Of a stretch of DNA of 64,000 bases, positions 14,221-31,685 are shown in pieces. The notes under the pieces are model-generated. The model was not told where the DNA came from and did not search any database. It worked only from the letters and a program-made list of their open reading frames with translations. The stretch comes from Prevotella sp. (GTDB taxonomy: Bacteria > Bacteroidota > Bacteroidia > Bacteroidales > Bacteroidaceae). The DNA lies in assembly GCA_017449675.1 (NCBI GenBank), contig JAFTFG010000010.1, positions 1-64,000 on the forward strand, given 5' to 3'. The translations under genes and the position numbers were made by a program. The stretch's first letter is position 1. Each line of letters begins with the position of its first letter.

Positions 14221-16701
14221 ATGAAAGTAATGAAATTCGGCGGAACGTCCGTAGGTTCCGTAAAAAGCATTTTAAGCTTGAAAGAAATTGTGGAGGCAGA
14301 GGCTCGGACGCAACCTGTCGTAGTAGTAGTTAGTGCACTAAACGGTATCACTGATGCGTTGATAGCCACCTCGCAATTGGCGCTCAAGGGTGATGAACGG
14401 TGGAGAGAGGAATTCGATGCGATGGTGAACCGCCATCATCAGATGATTGACACCGTTATCCTTGACAATCAGAAACGCGTAGACTTATTCAATACAGTAG
14501 ACCAACTCTTCGAACAGTTGAAGAGTATCTACTATGGTGTGTTCCTCATTCATGACCTCAGCGGCAAGACACTCGATGCCATTGTCAGTTATGGTGAGCG
14601 CTTAAGTTCCAACATCGTGGCTGCTCTCGTCAAGAATGGTATGCGCATGAATGCCCGTGACTTCATCCGTACGGAGAATAAGAACGGCATCCATACCCTT
14701 GACTCAGAATTGACCGCAAAACTGGTAAAAGAGGCTTTCGGCCCAATATGTTGCTGCGGCACAGCAACCAACAAAACCATAGCCGTCGTACCCGGTTTCA
14801 TTGCCCGTGACCGTGACACCCACGAGACGACCAATCTCGGACGAGGCGGTAGTGACTATACAGCCGCTATCATCGCCGCTGCACTCGATGCGGAGATTCT
14901 GGAGATCTGGACGGATGTGGACGGTTTCATGACTGCTGACCCGAAAGTCATCAAGACCGCTTATACGATCAACGAACTATCCTATATAGAGGCCATGGAA
15001 CTTTGTAACTTCGGGGCCAAGGTCATCTATCCGCCAACGATATATCCCGTTTGTATCAAGAATATCCCCATCAGGGTGAAGAACACCTTCAACCCTGAGC
15101 ATCCTGGTACCCTCATCAAAGATAAAATCGAGGACGACATGAAACCCATCAAGGGTATCTCCAGCATCAAAGGGACAACGTTGATTACAGTCACCGGTCT
15201 GTCGATGGTCGGTGTGATTGGTGTCAACCGCCGTATCTTCACCACCCTCGCTAATAAGGGAATCTCTGTCTTCATGGTATCACAGGCTTCTTCCGAGAAC
15301 TCCACCAGTATTGGTGTACGTGACGAGGATGCAGAGGCTGCCGCCGAGGTACTGAACGCCGAGTTTGCCAAGGAGATCGAGACGGGTGCCATGTTCCCCA
15401 TGCAGGTAGAGAGCGGTCTTGCCACTATCGCTATTGTGGGTGAGAACATGAAACAGACACCGGGTATTGCCGGAAAGTTATTTGGTACCCTAGGACGTTC
15501 AGGTATCTCTGTAATCGCATGTGCCCAAGGTGCATCAGAGACAAATATCTCCTTTGTGGTTGACGGTCGCTTCCTCCGTAAGTCACTCAACGTACTGCAT
15601 GACTCCTTCTTCCTGTCGGAATACAAGGTGCTCAACATCTTCATCTGCGGTATCGGTACCGTAGGCGGTATGCTGCTGGAGCAGATCCGTACACAGCAGC
15701 AGTTCCTGATGCAGTCAAGACGTTTGAAACTGAATGTCGTAGGTATTTCCGATGTCGAGAACTTTGTCCTCGACCGTGACGGTATTGACTTGGATTATTA
15801 CGAGAAAACATTACGTGCCGGCTATCCCGCTAATACAGAGCATATGCGTGATGAGATCGTGAAGATGAATATCTTCAACTCTGTCTTCGTTGACTGTACG
15901 GCAAGCAAGCAAATCGCATCACTCTACCAGACATTCCTAGAGCATAACATCTCCGTGGTGGCAGCCAACAAGATTGCGGCTTCCAGTGATTACGAGAGTT
16001 ATATCAAACTCAAGCAGACGGCACGTGACCGTGGCGTGTGGTTCCGTTATGAGACAAACGTAGGAGCCGGTCTGCCAATCATTGGCACGATCAACGACCT
16101 TTGTAACTCCGGTGATAAGATTCTGAAGATTGAGGCTATCCTGTCAGGAACCCTGAACTTTATCTTCAACGAGATAGCCGCTGATGTACCCTTCTCAGAG
16201 ACTGTTCGTCGTGCTAAGGAACAGCGTTATTCTGAACCTGACCCACGTATCGACCTCTCTGGTACGGATGTGATTCGCAAACTGGTCATCCTGACTCGTG
16301 AGGCAGGCTATCAGGTAGAGCAGGCTGATGTGGAGAAACACCTCTTTGTTCCTGATGACTACTTTGAGGGAAGTCTTGAGGACTTCTGGAAACGACTGCC
16401 CGAACTGGATGCCGACTTCGAGGCTCGCCGTAAGGTACTGGAAGCAGAAGGCAAACGCTGGCGTTTTGTGGCAACGATGGAAGCCGATGAGAACAATCCA
16501 TCGTCGTTCAAGACCAGTGTGGCACTGAAGGAAGTACCGTCCGACCATCCGTTCTATCCCTTGGAAGGCTCTAATAATATCGTGCTATTGACCACAGAAC
16601 GCTATAAGGAATATCCCATGCTCATTCAAGGATATGGTGCCGGTGCTGCCGTGACTGCTGCCGGTGTGTTTGCCAACATCATGAGTATTGCTAATATATA
16701 G
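14221..16701 (+). CDS. thrA: Bifunctional aspartate kinase / homoserine dehydrogenase I
   Basis: Protein of about 826 residues from ATG 14221 (MKVMKFGGTSVGS). The N-terminal aspartokinase domain shows KFGGTSVGS and TTNLGRGGSDYTAA. Two ACT regulatory domains lie in the middle (about 310-460). The C-terminal homoserine dehydrogenase carries the NAD(P)-binding FICGIGTVGGMLLEQI and the catalytic block YSEPDPRIDLSGTDV. It performs the first and third steps from aspartate towards threonine and methionine; the ACT domains usually mean threonine feedback. Around 14750 the protein carries an unusual CCCGTATN stretch encoded by a palindrome also found in thrC (see findings). First gene of thrA-apgM-thrC. 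Confidence 0.95.
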   Translation: MKVMKFGGTSVGSVKSILSLKEIVEAEARTQPVVVVVSALNGITDALIATSQLALKGDERWREEFDAMVNRHHQMIDTVILDNQKRVDLFNTVDQLFEQLKSIYYGVFLIHDLSGKTLDAIVSYGERLSSNIVAALVKNGMRMNARDFIRTENKNGIHTLDSELTAKLVKEAFGPICCCGTATNKTIAVVPGFIARDRDTHETTNLGRGGSDYTAAIIAAALDAEILEIWTDVDGFMTADPKVIKTAYTINELSYIEAMELCNFGAKVIYPPTIYPVCIKNIPIRVKNTFNPEHPGTLIKDKIEDDMKPIKGISSIKGTTLITVTGLSMVGVIGVNRRIFTTLANKGISVFMVSQASSENSTSIGVRDEDAEAAAEVLNAEFAKEIETGAMFPMQVESGLATIAIVGENMKQTPGIAGKLFGTLGRSGISVIACAQGASETNISFVVDGRFLRKSLNVLHDSFFLSEYKVLNIFICGIGTVGGMLLEQIRTQQQFLMQSRRLKLNVVGISDVENFVLDRDGIDLDYYEKTLRAGYPANTEHMRDEIVKMNIFNSVFVDCTASKQIASLYQTFLEHNISVVAANKIAASSDYESYIKLKQTARDRGVWFRYETNVGAGLPIIGTINDLCNSGDKILKIEAILSGTLNFIFNEIAADVPFSETVRRAKEQRYSEPDPRIDLSGTDVIRKLVILTREAGYQVEQADVEKHLFVPDDYFEGSLEDFWKRLPELDADFEARRKVLEAEGKRWRFVATMEADENNPSSFKTSVALKEVPSDHPFYPLEGSNNIVLLTTERYKEYPMLIQGYGAGAAVTAAGVFANIMSIANI
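14750..14768. repeat. GTTGCTG/CAGCAAC palindromic mini-element, copy in thrA
   Basis: GTTGCTG, a 5-nt loop (CGGCA), CAGCAAC, followed by CAACAAA. Copies with the same stem and flank lie at 18323-18341 and 31667-31685. Here it is read in frame within the aspartokinase domain. Confidence 0.65.
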
Positions 16702-16732
16702 TTCCTATAGTTTCTATTGCTCCTATTGTTCA

Positions 16733-17944
16733 ATGAAGCACATTATTATATTAGGCGATGGCATGGCAGACCATCATGTCGCCAGACTGGGTAATAAGAC
16801 ATTGCTGCAGTATGCCCGTCCCGAATATATGGAAAGACTGGCTAAGGAGGGACGTACTGGACGACTCATCACTGTTCCTGAGGGATTTCCCCCGGGCTCG
16901 GAAGTTGCCAATACGGCAATCCTCGGCTATGATCTGAATAAGGTATATGAAGGGCGTGGCCCCTTGGAAGCCGCCAGTATCGGCTATGAGATGGCTGACG
17001 ACGACTTTGCCATCCGTTGTAATATCATCACACTGGAAGACGGGAAGATTATCACCCACAATGGCGGGAATCTGGAAACCGCTGATGCTGATGTGCTCAT
17101 CAAATACCTGAATGAGCACTTAGGTAATGACCGTGTGAAGTTCATCACGGGTATTCAGTATCGGCATTTACTTGTCATCAAGGGTGGCAACAAGCATATT
17201 ATCTGCAATCCGCCCCATGACCATCCCAACGAGGAGTGGCGACCATTGTTGGTGAAAGCGGAAATTCCTGAGGCACAGGAGACTGCCGACCTTATCAATG
17301 ACCTGATATTAAAATCACAGGAGTTACTTGCCAAGCATCCCTATAATATCGCCAAAGCAGCAAAGGGGGAGCGACAGGCAAACAGTATCTGGCCTTGGAG
17401 CGGAGGCTATCGCCCGTCTATGCAGACACTGATGGCACAGTACCCGCAGGTCAAGAGCGGTGCCGTCATATCTGCCGTCGACCTAATTCAAGGTATCGGA
17501 CGCTATGCGGGACTACGCATCATCAAAGTACCTGGTGCCACCGGTCTTGCCAACACCAACTACGAGGGCAAGGCTCAGGCTGCTATCGAGGCACTGAAGA
17601 AGGATGATTTCGTCTTCGTACATGTGGAGGCGACTGACGAGGCAGGTCATGACGGTGACCTGGACTTGAAACTGAAAGCGATTGACTACTTGGATAAGCG
17701 ACTCATCAAGCCCATCCTTGAGGCTATTGAGCAAATGGACGAGGACGTGTGTGTCGCTGTCCTCCCTGACCACCCCACTCCCGTCGAACTCCGCATCCAC
17801 GTCAACGAGCCTGTGCCGTTTATCATCTGGCACAAGGGAATCACACCTGACGAGGTGCAGCACTATGACGAGGAGAGTTGTGTGAGTGGCGGATACGGAT
17901 TGCTCCGACTGAATGAATTTATGAACGAACTGATGAAGATATGA
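16733..17944 (+). CDS. apgM: Cofactor-independent phosphoglycerate mutase-like protein, probable homoserine kinase analogue
   Basis: Protein of 403 residues from ATG 16733 (MKHIIILGDGMADH); the frame extends further but overlaps thrA. It belongs to the archaeal-type (ApgM) alkaline phosphatase superfamily: DGMAD metal site, PPGSEVANTAILGYD with the catalytic Ser, HVEATDEAGHDGD, and LPDHPTPVELRIH. The operon between thrA and thrC has no GHMP-type homoserine kinase (thrB), while this protein sits exactly where thrB is expected and overlaps thrC by 4 bp. Comparative genomics has proposed such proteins as functional analogues of homoserine kinase. That role is inference; true phosphoglycerate mutase activity is the alternative. 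Confidence 0.85.
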   Translation: MKHIIILGDGMADHHVARLGNKTLLQYARPEYMERLAKEGRTGRLITVPEGFPPGSEVANTAILGYDLNKVYEGRGPLEAASIGYEMADDDFAIRCNIITLEDGKIITHNGGNLETADADVLIKYLNEHLGNDRVKFITGIQYRHLLVIKGGNKHIICNPPHDHPNEEWRPLLVKAEIPEAQETADLINDLILKSQELLAKHPYNIAKAAKGERQANSIWPWSGGYRPSMQTLMAQYPQVKSGAVISAVDLIQGIGRYAGLRIIKVPGATGLANTNYEGKAQAAIEALKKDDFVFVHVEATDEAGHDGDLDLKLKAIDYLDKRLIKPILEAIEQMDEDVCVAVLPDHPTPVELRIHVNEPVPFIIWHKGITPDEVQHYDEESCVSGGYGLLRLNEFMNELMKI

Positions 17945-19266
17945 AATACTACAGTACAAACGGAAAGGCCCCCATAGCCGACCTGCAAAAAGCAGTAGTG
18001 AAAGGACTTGCCGAGGATCGTGGTCTCTATATGCCGGAGCGCATCAAACCACTGCCCAAAGAGTTCTTCGACACTATTGAGACCAAGAGTTTCCAAGAGA
18101 TTGCCTATACTGTCGCCGACGCTTTCTTCGGTGAGGATGTGGAGGCGGAGGCACTGAAGAGCATCGTGTATGACACCCTGTCATTCGACTGCCCTGTGGT
18201 AAAGGTCAAGGACAACATCTACACCTTGGAACTCTTCCATGGCCCTACCCTCGCCTTTAAAGACGTGGGGGCTCGTTTCATGGCAAGGCTGCTACAGTAT
18301 TTTATCCGTCGCAGTTCTACTGGTTGCTGTACCACAGCAACAAACCAGCAGGTCAACGTCCTCGTAGCCACTAGTGGCGATACGGGCAGTGCCGTTGCCA
18401 ATGGTTTCCTCGGCGTGGAGGGCATCCACGTCTACGTACTTTATCCCAAAGGAAAGGTGAGTAAGATACAGGAGAGTCAGTTTACGACACTCGGTAAGAA
18501 TATCACCGCCATTGAGGTGGATGGTGTCTTCGACGACTGTCAGGCGCTCGTGAAGTCGGCTTTCATGGACGAGGAACTGAACCGTCACATGAAACTGACC
18601 TCTGCTAACAGTATCAATGTAGCCCGCTTCCTGCCACAGGCTTTCTACTATTTCAATGCCTATGCACGGATGAAGGCTATGGGCAAGGCAGACCATCTGG
18701 TGATGTGCGTACCCAGTGGTAACTTCGGTAATATCTGCTCCGCTTTGTTCGGACATGAGATGGGACTGCCTATCAAGCGTTTCATCGCCGCCAATAATGC
18801 CAACGACATCTTCTATAAATACCTGCAGACGGGTAAGTATGAGCCCAAGGCCTCCGTACAGACACTCGCCAATGCCATGGACGTAGGCGATCCCTCTAAC
18901 TTCGCCCGTATCTATGACCTTTACGATAAGAGTCATGAGCGCATCACGGCACTGATTAGTGGTGCGACCTATAACGATGAGCAGATACGCGAGACGATGC
19001 GCCAGTGCTATGCCGAGACAGGATACATCCTCGATCCGCATGGTGCCTGCGGCTATCGTGCCCTGCAAGAAGGTCTCAAAGACGGAGAGGTCGGCGTGTT
19101 CTGTGAGACAGCACATCCCGCTAAGTTCAAAGAGACGGTAGACAGTATCATCGATGGTAATGTAGAGATACCCGAACGCCTTGCCGCCTTCATGAGAGGA
19201 CAGAAGCAAAGCGTGGAGATGACCAAGGAGTTTGAGGACTTCAAGCGCTTCCTGATGAGCCGTTAG
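17941..19266 (+). CDS. thrC: Threonine synthase
   Basis: Protein of 441 residues. PLP lysine in TLAFKDVGARFMARLL, the phosphate-binding turn ATSGDTGSAVANGF, SANSINVARFLPQ, and VPSGNFGNICSA all match threonine synthase. It converts O-phosphohomoserine to threonine in the cytosol. The ATG overlaps the apgM stop (ATGA). Between the PLP lysine block and ATSGDTG the protein carries an extra GCCTTATN segment encoded by the palindromic element described in the findings. The stop TAG shares bases with the stop of the convergent gene that follows, so the two genes overlap tail to tail by 4 bp. Confidence 0.95.
   Translation: MKYYSTNGKAPIADLQKAVVKGLAEDRGLYMPERIKPLPKEFFDTIETKSFQEIAYTVADAFFGEDVEAEALKSIVYDTLSFDCPVVKVKDNIYTLELFHGPTLAFKDVGARFMARLLQYFIRRSSTGCCTTATNQQVNVLVATSGDTGSAVANGFLGVEGIHVYVLYPKGKVSKIQESQFTTLGKNITAIEVDGVFDDCQALVKSAFMDEELNRHMKLTSANSINVARFLPQAFYYFNAYARMKAMGKADHLVMCVPSGNFGNICSALFGHEMGLPIKRFIAANNANDIFYKYLQTGKYEPKASVQTLANAMDVGDPSNFARIYDLYDKSHERITALISGATYNDEQIRETMRQCYAETGYILDPHGACGYRALQEGLKDGEVGVFCETAHPAKFKETVDSIIDGNVEIPERLAAFMRGQKQSVEMTKEFEDFKRFLMSR
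18323..18341. repeat. GTTGCTG/CAGCAAC palindromic mini-element, copy in thrC
   Basis: GTTGCTG, loop TACCA, CAGCAAC, then AAAC. It is read in the same frame as the thrA copy, giving CC-T-TATN in both proteins. Confidence 0.65.
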
Positions 19267-19988
19267 CGGACGGTCATGTGGAAGCAACCTTGCTTCACCT
19301 CATACTTGATATAACAGCGTCCCTGTTCCCGCATATCACGCAGGACCTCGCACAATACCCACTTGAGCGTATCGTCACGAACTGGCTGGGTGACAGGGTG
19401 ATACCGATTATAGCAAATGTCAAAAGTCGTGCCGAAGAGATGGCAACTGCGCTCCGTCGCATTACCATTTCTTCGGCGCAGTTTTTCCACATCCGACTCA
19501 GAGCGCAGCACACTGGTGACAATCAATTGGTTCAAGGGAACGCCCTTCACGTACAGACTGTCATAGAACGCCTTACCGATATCCTCCAAAAGGACAGCGG
19601 CACGAGGCACCAGATACGGGATGGAACTATATAGCGGGTCTACGTGATAATAGGGACTTGCTCCCACATACACCAGTTCCTTCTTGCGCATCTCCGCATC
19701 CTCACGGTTCTTCACAGGGCGCACTCCCCACTTCTCCGCCGCTACGATCTGCACCGCCTGACTGTCAGGAAATGACTCCTTATAATTACGAACACCCCAG
19801 ATACGGTGCTTCTTGCCATTGAATATTGGCTTTTGGCTATTTGCCATTAGTGCTTGACAGTTATCGACTATCAACTGTGAACGATTCTCACTCCCCCCAT
19901 TCACCCCAGGAAAAATCGCCCTCACTATTGCGAGTATTACTACCACAGTAGCGAATCCTAACAGATATTTATTCTTCGTTATCTTCAT
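19263..19988 (-). CDS. DUF5715 / M15-like membrane-anchored protein
   Basis: Protein of about 242 residues from Met 19988 (MKITKNKYLLGFATVVVILAIVRAIF), which gives an N-terminal membrane anchor; the longer frame to 20117 would place 43 unlikely residues before it. SVLRSESDVEKLRRRNGNAT followed by SCHLFGTTFDICYNRY resembles the SxHxxGxAxD zinc site of M15 D,D-carboxypeptidases, and GCFHMTV near the C-terminus could supply the last His. A periplasmic peptidoglycan-modifying role is inferred. It is convergent with thrC. The family assignment to DUF5715 is from memory and moderately sure. Confidence 0.65.
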   Translation of the reverse strand: MKITKNKYLLGFATVVVILAIVRAIFPGVNGGSENRSQLIVDNCQALMANSQKPIFNGKKHRIWGVRNYKESFPDSQAVQIVAAEKWGVRPVKNREDAEMRKKELVYVGASPYYHVDPLYSSIPYLVPRAAVLLEDIGKAFYDSLYVKGVPLNQLIVTSVLRSESDVEKLRRRNGNATERSCHLFGTTFDICYNRYHPVTQPVRDDTLKWVLCEVLRDMREQGRCYIKYEVKQGCFHMTVR

Positions 19989-20055
19989 TTTGGTTGCGAA
20001 GGTACACATTTTCTTTGTAAAAAGCGAAGGATTTAGGAATAAAAACAACAAAGAA

Positions 20056-20083
20056 ATATCTGTGGGACAATAAAACGAGGGGG
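20056..20083. repeat. Intergenic dispersed repeat, copy 1
   Basis: The run ATATCTGTGGGACA, one or two bases, then TAAACGAGGG recurs at 23930-23954. Both copies lie upstream of a promoter region, about 170 bp before the small peptide gene and about 80 bp before the phoH -7 box. Confidence 0.6.
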
Positions 20084-29340: not shown

Positions 29341-30531
29341 ATGACAGACAACAGGTATATGATGCGTGGGGTCTCTGCCGCCAAGGAGGACGTACACGCC
29401 GCTATTAAGAATATCGACAAGGGAATCTTCCCACAGGCTTTCTGTAAGATTATCCCCGACATCCTGGGTGGTGACCCTGAGTATTGCAATATCATGCATG
29501 CAGACGGTGCAGGCACTAAATCCAGTCTGGCCTACATGTATTGGAAAGAGACGGGCGACCTCTCCGTATGGAAAGGTATTGCACAGGATGCTATCGTGAT
29601 GAATACCGACGACCTGCTCTGTGTGGGCGCTGTGGACAATATCCTTGTCAGTTCGACCATCGGACGTAATAAGATGCTCGTTCCTGGGGAGGTCATCTCT
29701 GTTATCATCAACGGCACCGACGAACTGCTTGCCGAACTGCGTGAGATGGGAATAGGCATCTATCCCACCGGCGGTGAGACGGCCGATGTGGGCGACCTCG
29801 TCCGCACCATCATTGTCGACTCTACCGTTACCTGTCGCATGAAACGCAGTGATGTCATCAACAATGCCAATATCCGCCCCGGTGATGTCATCGTCGGGCT
29901 TTCCTCTACAGGACAGGCAACTTACGAGAAGCGTTATAACGGCGGTATGGGAAGCAATGGCCTGACCTCCGCCCGCCATGATGTCTTCGCCAAATATCTT
30001 GCCGAGAAATTCCCAGAGAGTTACGATCATGCCGTACCCAATGAGTTGGTATATAGTGGTAAATACAAACTGACGGATGCGGTTCCACATGTTGATGTGG
30101 CACATCAACAAGCAAAACTGCCGGACATGGGGCAACTCGTGCTCTCTCCTACCCGCACCTATGCTCCCGTCATCAAGAAACTGTTGGATGAGTTGCGTCC
30201 AGAGATTCATGGCATGGTACACTGCACTGGCGGAGCCCAGACCAAGGTACTGCATTTCGTGAACGACAATTGTCGTGTCATCAAGGACAACATGTTCCCC
30301 GTCCCCCCACTCTTCCACGCTATCCATGAGTGCTCCGGTACTGACTGGAAAGAGATGTATCAGGTATTCAATATGGGCCATCGCATGGAGATCTATATCC
30401 GTCCGGAGATGGCAGATCAGGTCATCGCCCTCTCTAAGTTCTTCAACATCGATGCGCAGGTCATCGGACATATCGAGGAAGGACCGAAGAGTCTGACCAT
30501 CCAAAGCGAATTCGGAGAATTCAATTATTAA
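29341..30531 (+). CDS. purM: AIR synthase (phosphoribosylformylglycinamidine cyclo-ligase), Bacteroidota type
   Basis: Protein of 396 residues of the PurM/PurL superfamily: MRGVSAAKEDVHAAIKNID, MHADGAGTKSSLAYMYWKETG, DDLLCVGAVDNILVSSTIGRN, and PTGGETADVGDLVRTIIVDSTV in the ATP-binding half, then GDVIVGLSSTGQATYEKRYNGGMGSNGLTSAR. It would close the imidazole ring in purine synthesis, in keeping with purC nearby. It is longer than E. coli PurM (345 residues), typical for Bacteroidales, where databases often call it AIR synthase-related protein; the specific reaction is therefore a good but not certain inference. Confidence 0.85.
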   Translation: MTDNRYMMRGVSAAKEDVHAAIKNIDKGIFPQAFCKIIPDILGGDPEYCNIMHADGAGTKSSLAYMYWKETGDLSVWKGIAQDAIVMNTDDLLCVGAVDNILVSSTIGRNKMLVPGEVISVIINGTDELLAELREMGIGIYPTGGETADVGDLVRTIIVDSTVTCRMKRSDVINNANIRPGDVIVGLSSTGQATYEKRYNGGMGSNGLTSARHDVFAKYLAEKFPESYDHAVPNELVYSGKYKLTDAVPHVDVAHQQAKLPDMGQLVLSPTRTYAPVIKKLLDELRPEIHGMVHCTGGAQTKVLHFVNDNCRVIKDNMFPVPPLFHAIHECSGTDWKEMYQVFNMGHRMEIYIRPEMADQVIALSKFFNIDAQVIGHIEEGPKSLTIQSEFGEFNY

Positions 30532-31666: not shown

Positions 31667-31685
31667 ATTGCTGTGTCACAGCAAC
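31667..31685. repeat. GTTGCTG/CAGCAAC palindromic mini-element, intergenic copy
   Basis: ATTGCTG, loop TGTCA, CAGCAAC, then CAATTAAAC, between the prfA stop and pyrF. It shares stem, loop ending (CA) and flank with the in-frame copies in thrA and thrC. Confidence 0.6.

Follow-up and report, generated by a model that had tools for sequence, protein, structure and literature searches.

A 39-bp REP-like repeat in protein-coding genes of Prevotella and a RAYT-type transposase that carries it

How does the same palindrome come to be translated, in the same frame, within both thrA and thrC? The question is raised by a 64,000-nucleotide stretch of a Prevotella sp. genome (assembly GCA_017449675.1, contig JAFTFG010000010.1, positions 1 to 64,000), here called the window, in which an exact GTTGCTGNNNNNCAGCAAC palindrome lies at 14750-14768 in thrA and at 18323-18341 in thrC, with 0 mismatches and in both cases reading CC-x-TATN within a long open reading frame (ORF). 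A copy with one mismatch lies at 31667-31685, in the spacer between two genes, putatively prfA and pyrF. A first-pass annotation of the window had listed these three copies correctly, including the frame of the two genic ones, and had overlooked a fourth, GTTGATGTGGCACATCAAC at 30091-30109 in purM, which differs from GTTGCTGNNNNNCAGCAAC by two symmetric changes. Its judgement that chance was an unlikely cause holds: with up to two mismatches allowed, the window has 4 matches where 0.18 are expected, and none of 100 shuffles gets to 4. We consider it very likely that the four copies belong to a 39-bp family resembling repetitive extragenic palindromic (REP) sequences, and that the family is mobilised by REP-associated tyrosine transposases (RAYTs) of the Y1/HUH type, which carry the same repeat in frame in their own genes.

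The repeat unit and its copies in the window

The four copies, scored with a covariance model, are:

14741..14779, + strand (also matches −): 39-bp REP-like element in thrA, reading PICCCGTATNKT; core 14750-14768; 34.6 bits, E 9e-8
18314..18352, + strand (also matches −): 39-bp REP-like element in thrC, reading SSTGCCTTATNQQ; core 18323-18341; 38.7 bits, E 4.6e-9
30082..30120, + strand: 39-bp REP-like element in purM, core GTTGATGTGGCACATCAAC, read in another phase as VPHVDVAHQQAKL; 34.6 bits
31656..31694, − strand: 39-bp REP-like element in the prfA-pyrF spacer; 29.7 bits

The unit of about 39 bp, or 13 codons, consists of a 19-bp palindrome with conserved feet. Two head-to-tail copies in the single-contig genome G434 lie exactly 39 bp apart, and a logo of 48 copies from outside thrA and thrC is informative between −9 and +11 relative to the core of 19 bp. 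The A-rich flank described in the first-pass annotation is real: A.AC...AC.G follows the palindrome and a weaker GT...G precedes it, in copies oriented by the A-rich tail, which favours seeing that tail. The foot positions read G-Y-N-K and A-N-A-C, that is, GTNT on the other strand, and the four window copies are predicted to form hairpins of −8.9 to −13.5 kcal/mol. Across 59 aligned copies the inner stem is paired in 98.9% of cells, with two-sided changes at 5 of 8 pairs; these copies were selected as palindromic (21 of 90 palindromes failed a flank score and were dropped, and 10 of the other 69 were left out before alignment A1), and loops anchored by protein, considered below, form the stronger test. 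At the ThrA site, 10 copies, counted without locus L085, have two-sided changes at pairs 2, 3, 6, 7 and 8.

A transposase gene with the repeat inside it

Which gene accompanies the repeat? One host recurs: 13 matches fall in nine distinct genes, with an element-like sequence at the same place in each. Its protein bears two motifs typical of Y1/HUH transposases, MPDH[LFM]H and YLxDNP, in 11 of 11 aligned members, all of which are also matched by the NCBIfam family REP_Tyr_transpos (NF047646; best E 1.5e-10, the first member reaching 40.8 bits where the cut-off is 80); Pfam Y1_Tnp gives weak matches in 8 of the 11. The best 29 Foldseek matches of a low-confidence RAYT model are all transposases, most of them titled ISDra2, IS608 or IS200; 11 matches have an E of 0.001 or lower, and 4er8, the RAYT-REP complex of E. 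coli, comes at rank 31. In their source records, some relatives are called 'REP element-mobilizing transposase RayT'.

In 28 of the 30 best RAYT loci the repeat sits within the RAYT ORF, 108-211 nt downstream of the HUH motif, and in the 11 aligned proteins the stretch that it encodes falls between the HUH and Y motifs. A further copy sits near the end of the gene in 19 of the 30, and here 15 lie across or 0-19 nt after the stop codon, 1 at 129 nt and 3 inside the end of the ORF. Palindromes with a stem of at least 8 occur at HUH+80..+180 in 36 of 47 RAYT genes and, in each of seven other intervals, in 0-4 of 47; some of those in RAYT genes have cores that the covariance model misses. Beyond the HUH core, RAYT residues about 225-335 form a conserved C-terminal domain (VLVSPAISKGEKA..PLIYLQENG; L057:1575-2582 and L170:1146-2159), and its weak Foldseek matches to ShosA and PpnN (E 0.05) hint that the modelled fold may be Rossmann-like. 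The classical Y1_Tnp family (PF01797) had also been considered as a partner and was rejected: it occurs in 7 of 10 element-rich and 5 of 10 element-free genomes, and a palindrome scan found no element near 8 such genes.

Repeat and transposase also keep company across genomes. Among 200 genomes of the genus, 53 have both, 13 the element only, 54 only RAYT kin and 80 neither (p 8e-8, kinship uncorrected); when close RAYTs alone are counted, the figures are 26 with both, 40 with the element only, 9 with the RAYT only and 125 with neither. The hairpins, moreover, change in step with the transposase. Where the RAYT is of the GTANTAC type (8 genomes), dispersed copies number 14 GTANTAC and 6 GTGNCAC; where it is of the GTGNCAC type (10 genomes), they number 1 GTANTAC and 20 GTGNCAC (p 1.4e-5, again uncorrected for kinship); 7 of the 41 copies break the rule, five of the six GTGNCAC exceptions coming from genome G033. 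This matching started from 30 genomes and excluded copies inside RAYT loci; it left out G195, which has both RAYT types (1 GTANTAC and 4 GTGNCAC copies), G171, G040 and G047, which have other RAYT types and a single GTGNCAC copy apiece, and the 8 genomes in which neither pattern matched. Rare cores, too, are common to the copies within one locus (L201, L214), and the genome of locus L063, whose ThrC is 98% identical to that of the window, has a complete RAYT locus with a GCTGCGACC.. core, the core type also of two other copies in the source genome (L166).

Filled and empty loops in orthologous proteins

The host genes, and the ORF that separates thrA from thrC, are:

14221..16701, + strand: thrA, bifunctional aspartate kinase/homoserine dehydrogenase, host gene; NCBIfam NF006959, 1012 bits, above cut-off (the ATG at 14221 was chosen as start; the listed ORF begins at TTG 14209)
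16688..17944, + strand: ORF between thrA and thrC, presumably phosphoglycerate-mutase-like; its loop after PPHDHPNEEWRPLLVK has no element here and has the element in relatives
17941..19266, + strand: thrC, threonine synthase, host gene; NCBIfam, above cut-off
29341..30531, + strand: purM, host gene of the fourth copy; TIGR00878, below its cut-off

In a predicted structure of ThrC (mean predicted local distance difference test score, pLDDT, 65.8) the insert sits between helix 106-125 and strand 138-143, with residues 128-134 at pLDDT <50, and the PurM of the window is 8 residues longer than the solved 3mdo at the element. From 80 thrC loci fetched from Prevotella and relatives we read 81 ThrC loops, the window included, together with 53 ThrA loops (7 of 60 unread), all located by protein anchors and with no selection for palindromes. 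A palindromic stem of at least 7 occurs in 10 of 53 ThrA, 14 of 56 middle-ORF and 9 of 81 ThrC loops, compared with 5/419, 3/448 and 4/647 control segments of equal length 200-500 nt away (12/1514 in total). Two of the nine palindromic ThrC loops are those of the window and of its 98% identical relative (L063), and not all loop palindromes belong to the element family, that of the middle ORF in L115 being another palindrome. Most orthologues thus lack the residues, as the first-pass annotation had expected. It is the palindrome rather than the peptide that is conserved, because orthologous loops are short, are otherwise filled or have different self-complementary cores. The common pathway of ThrA and ThrC, to which the first-pass annotation had drawn attention, loses most of its weight, since the ORF between them and many unrelated genes also carry the element.

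The ThrC loop is hypervariable: it may be plain and short, or hold the element palindrome, compensated variants of it (GTTGCGACTCAGTCGCAAC, GTGGCTGTGCCACAGCCAC) or unrelated short repeats, and the ThrA and middle-ORF loops vary in the same way. Such other short repeats (CTCTCAC, TTCAAAG, ACTAGT and GACAGGAGTCAGGAG runs) fill the ThrC loop in L064, L067, L069, L071, L082, L106, L115 and L124, and this loop seems to accumulate tiny repeats in general; ACAGGAGTCAGGAG, checked as a dispersed family, gave just two copies each and in no more than 2 of 5 genomes. As a separate observation, L063 is a mosaic relative to positions 14600-20060 of the window, with 93% identity in a stretch that includes thrC, 83% in another and 71% around the ThrA loop, where the flanks have diverged too far for a fine-scale comparison.

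What, then, is gained when a loop is filled? In sister pairs such as L077/L090 and L101/L123 the filled member exceeds the short one by 18 nt, and the filled ThrA and ThrC loops exceed the shortest ones by 24 nt although the element measures 39 nt. Of the proposed in-frame insertion, then, one part stands, for the element is absent from most orthologues, and the simple form of it, without loss of loop sequence, finds no support, the net gain of 18-24 nt falling short of 39 nt. A net gain below the element length means that native loop sequence is missing; by the aligned sequences, filled alleles have had it replaced in part. Deleting just the element would fail to regenerate the short loops, and the missing sequence favours repeated gain or allele exchange. 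In a ThrA tree of 52 rows, built with the loop left out, the 10 filled rows call for 9 occupancy changes, as do shuffled labels.

How might a transposase place its hairpin within an enzyme? By analogy with known RAYTs, we envision that the protein would recognise the single-stranded hairpin by its foot, cleave it and rejoin it, and so place copies elsewhere in the genome. With a length of 13 codons and, as a rule, two or more phases free of stops, a copy that lands in a surface loop would spare protein function and persist, and copies outside tolerant places would be lost; part of the target loop may well be lost along with the insertion. Mobility, cleavage and tolerance by the proteins are in this scheme what we infer.

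Several observations weigh against mobilisation by RAYTs. Published REPs have a GT[AG]G foot where this family has GTNT, and ThrA and ThrC gain a net 18-24 nt, which a clean insertion of a 39-nt unit would not give. No pair with near-identical flanks that would display a fresh insertion was found, the best pair with a short loop having flanks that are 95% identical far from the loop and 89% near it. No RAYT was found in the source genome, which is 54% complete, and 13 of the 66 element genomes, the source included, are without one, just as 54 genomes have RAYT kin and no pattern match. The RAYT locus of the L063 genome that shares the window's core type is fragmentary and has one in-frame stop. 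The presence of the element in 29 of the 30 best RAYT loci is partly ascertained, the RAYT profile having been seeded by element-bearing genes; the RAYT model is weak (pLDDT 53.7); and a sequence search of the PDB with the RAYT profile gave no match.

Conceivably, the filled alleles have a single origin or very few, and short thrA and thrC stretches passed from species to species by homologous exchange, with no repeated transposition into the same loop. This would account for the same loop and register in many species and would also give the scattered occupancy of the tree, and the thrA region is indeed mosaic (L063 is 98% identical in ThrC and 71% around the ThrA loop). By their 60-nt flanks, four of the 11 filled alleles among 53 rows (window, L066, L092 and L139) are nearest to another filled one. 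The other seven are nearest to an element-free row, in flanks too short and diverged to point clearly in either direction. The filled alleles differ in core (AATGGCATT, GACTCAGTC, CTGTGNCACAG), and we regard exchange as an unlikely source of the pattern. With similar reserve we offer a bolder and doubtful extension of RAYT mobilisation: a RAYT lineage may have made its REP into a translation-proof 13-codon cassette, the transposase writing its hairpin time after time into the same tolerant core-enzyme loops in place of the native sequence, with its own gene as the repository of the current hairpin. If this were true, one selfish repeat would be a natural loop-swapping engine.

The compensated changes in neutral-looking loops could, alternatively, be mutational. 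Template switching, a mechanism known from other systems, corrects imperfect palindromes, and if it restored the symmetry here, compensated cores would need no selection by a transposase. Such correction would leave the conserved feet, the spread, the RAYT linkage and the matched core types unexplained, and we hold it to be improbable as an account of the family.

Host genes, reading phases and related systems

Beyond the window, the source genome (G000; 1.8 Mb) yields 21 covariance-model matches over both strands, at no fewer than 11 places; one palindrome without the tail (L002) was left out of the element count. Pattern copies lie in genes for an N-acetylornithine-type carbamoyltransferase (SCCDTATS), PurL (DCCDTATN) and a TolC-like protein (VAVTQQQA), of which PurL scores above its NCBIfam cut-off and the other two below theirs. 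The copies added by the model include those in genes that look pyrroline-5-carboxylate-reductase-like and glycosyltransferase-like. The carbamoyltransferase is 10 residues longer than the solved 1js1 at the element; the PurL linker is too variable for an insertion to be called, and among PurM loops the reading pattern recovered 25 of 120. Within the genus 66 of 200 genomes are pattern-positive, the source included (reversed control, 0), among them 20 of the 86 best; the covariance model is positive in 38 of 251 genomes of the family, in 8 of 30 genera, and at the level of the order it finds, at E up to 1e-4, the source genome and 2 of 294 others. The family is therefore patchy in the genus and rare outside the family Bacteroidaceae.

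This patchiness bears on the possibility that the repeat is a binding or regulatory site, either for a DNA-binding dimer or as an mRNA hairpin, kept by selection. The palindrome with its fixed 19-bp core, conserved feet and predicted hairpins would suit such a role, and the prfA-pyrF spacer (locus L175) and a glycosyltransferase-like gene are filled in G434 as well. We nevertheless think it very improbable: 134 of the 200 genus genomes, many of them 99% complete, are without a pattern match, the core letters vary while pairing is kept, the hosts are unrelated and the repeat accompanies RAYT genes.

Which genes take up the repeat, and in which frame? Among 106 distinct copies, 80 fall within clear ORFs and 4 outside coding sequence, with 22 unclear; for random places in these loci the coding share is 73.7%. 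The repeat, being found in genes as often as random places are, does not avoid them. REPs are usually described as intergenic; here central enzymes of various species carry copies (ThrA, ThrC, PurM, PurL, the acetylornithine-type carbamoyltransferase, pyrroline-5-carboxylate reductase, MnmG and valyl-tRNA synthetase), and further hosts include a nonribosomal peptide synthetase, a GltD-like protein (both labels read from domains) and a membrane-fusion protein. The 80 coding copies comprise 39 in the CCxxTATN phase, 37 in the VAVxQQQ phase and 4 in the third, where equal use of stop-free phases predicts 30, 27 and about 23. This count merges copies found by pattern, palindrome and model (3 of 69 were dropped beforehand), which form no random sample, and the skew appears firmer than it is since sites are common to several species; it fits a removal of copies reading LL[CW]HSN. 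Selection on a cysteine-rich CCxxTATN peptide, for which those 39 copies and the near-disuse of phase 2 (4 of 80 against 22.8 expected) might speak, is scarcely credible, because almost as many copies are in the VAVxQQQ phase, the peptide at one ThrA site varies (CCCGTATN, CCNGIATN, CCDSVATN, SRNSVAAH) with the DNA still palindromic, the skew fits the removal of LL[CW]HSN copies, and sites common to species are not independent. Two observations touch on these phases: a glycosyltransferase-like gene in L165 and in G434 locus L171 has the element in the third phase (SLSLCHSDKL), and in L033, L038, L046, L050, L051 and L183 the element (VCCCxTAT) is, by eye, the hydrophobic stretch of N-terminal signal-peptide-like sequences.

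How does this repeat relate to known systems? The first-pass view of a palindromic mini-element, akin in principle to those of Rickettsia and of other sequence, is borne out, the motif being more frequent than expected and its residues missing from most orthologues. Rickettsia RPE-1 elements are coding palindromes translated in unrelated genes of one lineage; likened by description alone, ours resemble them in lying within unrelated genes, RPE-1 being longer and from another phylum. The small dispersed repeats of cyanobacteria are similar, again by description alone, in being very short and dispersed.

A closer relative is TnpA-REP subclass 2.4 of Cyanobacteria and Bacteroidetes, of which the passages we draw on report REPs that flank the RAYT gene and lie in frame between its HuH and Y motifs, as well as double-foot palindromes (PMC6006769). 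The in-frame repeat between these motifs and the flanking repeats are common to both. As far as those passages go, subclass 2.4 has NH[IFV]H and YIxNNP where the proteins here have DH[LFM]H and YLxDNP (11/11), and feet of GT[AG]G/C[TC]AC where ours are GTNT/ANAC, and it differs from the RAYT here, which has a C-terminal domain of about 110 residues. GTAG- and CGTC-tagged REPs, in the sections of PMC3733652 used here, are palindromes of 20-40 bp, some in frame in genes, and the CGTC ones include Rickettsia RPE-4 and RPE-6. Our repeat shares with them its small palindromes and in-frame genic copies, and differs in that they are mostly intergenic while it is in genes as often as random places. 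The GT[AG]G that defines canonical GTAG elements is absent from its hairpin foot, and so is the CGTC combination (CGTC by the stem, AT first stem pairs and a CCA-like tail), the nearest match being CYGT on the other strand, 8-11 nt outside a stem that starts with GTTGC. It does have three features of REP-RAYT systems in the broad sense: a RAYT flanked by the repeat, an HUH/single-Tyr Y1 core and a repeat type of its own for each RAYT. Judged by its sequences, the system is REP-RAYT-like, has feet that are non-canonical and a divergent RAYT lineage of its own, and is set apart by foot, motifs and C-terminal domain. That REPs occur in frame in genes (PMC3733652), and inside RAYT genes between HuH and Y (PMC6006769), had been published, at least in the portions cited; a search of titles and abstract openings, with few subscription journals, for Prevotella palindromic repeats, REPINs or RAYTs, and for RAYTs in Bacteroidetes or within genes, gave none describing this system. 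It makes testable both the recognition by a RAYT of its own repeat and the way in which short mobile DNA becomes protein sequence.

Elsewhere in the window, positions 941-1020 hold three copies, at a spacing of 22 nt, of a different repeat that contains GCAGCGGCCGCTGC-type palindromes and is unrelated to the element.

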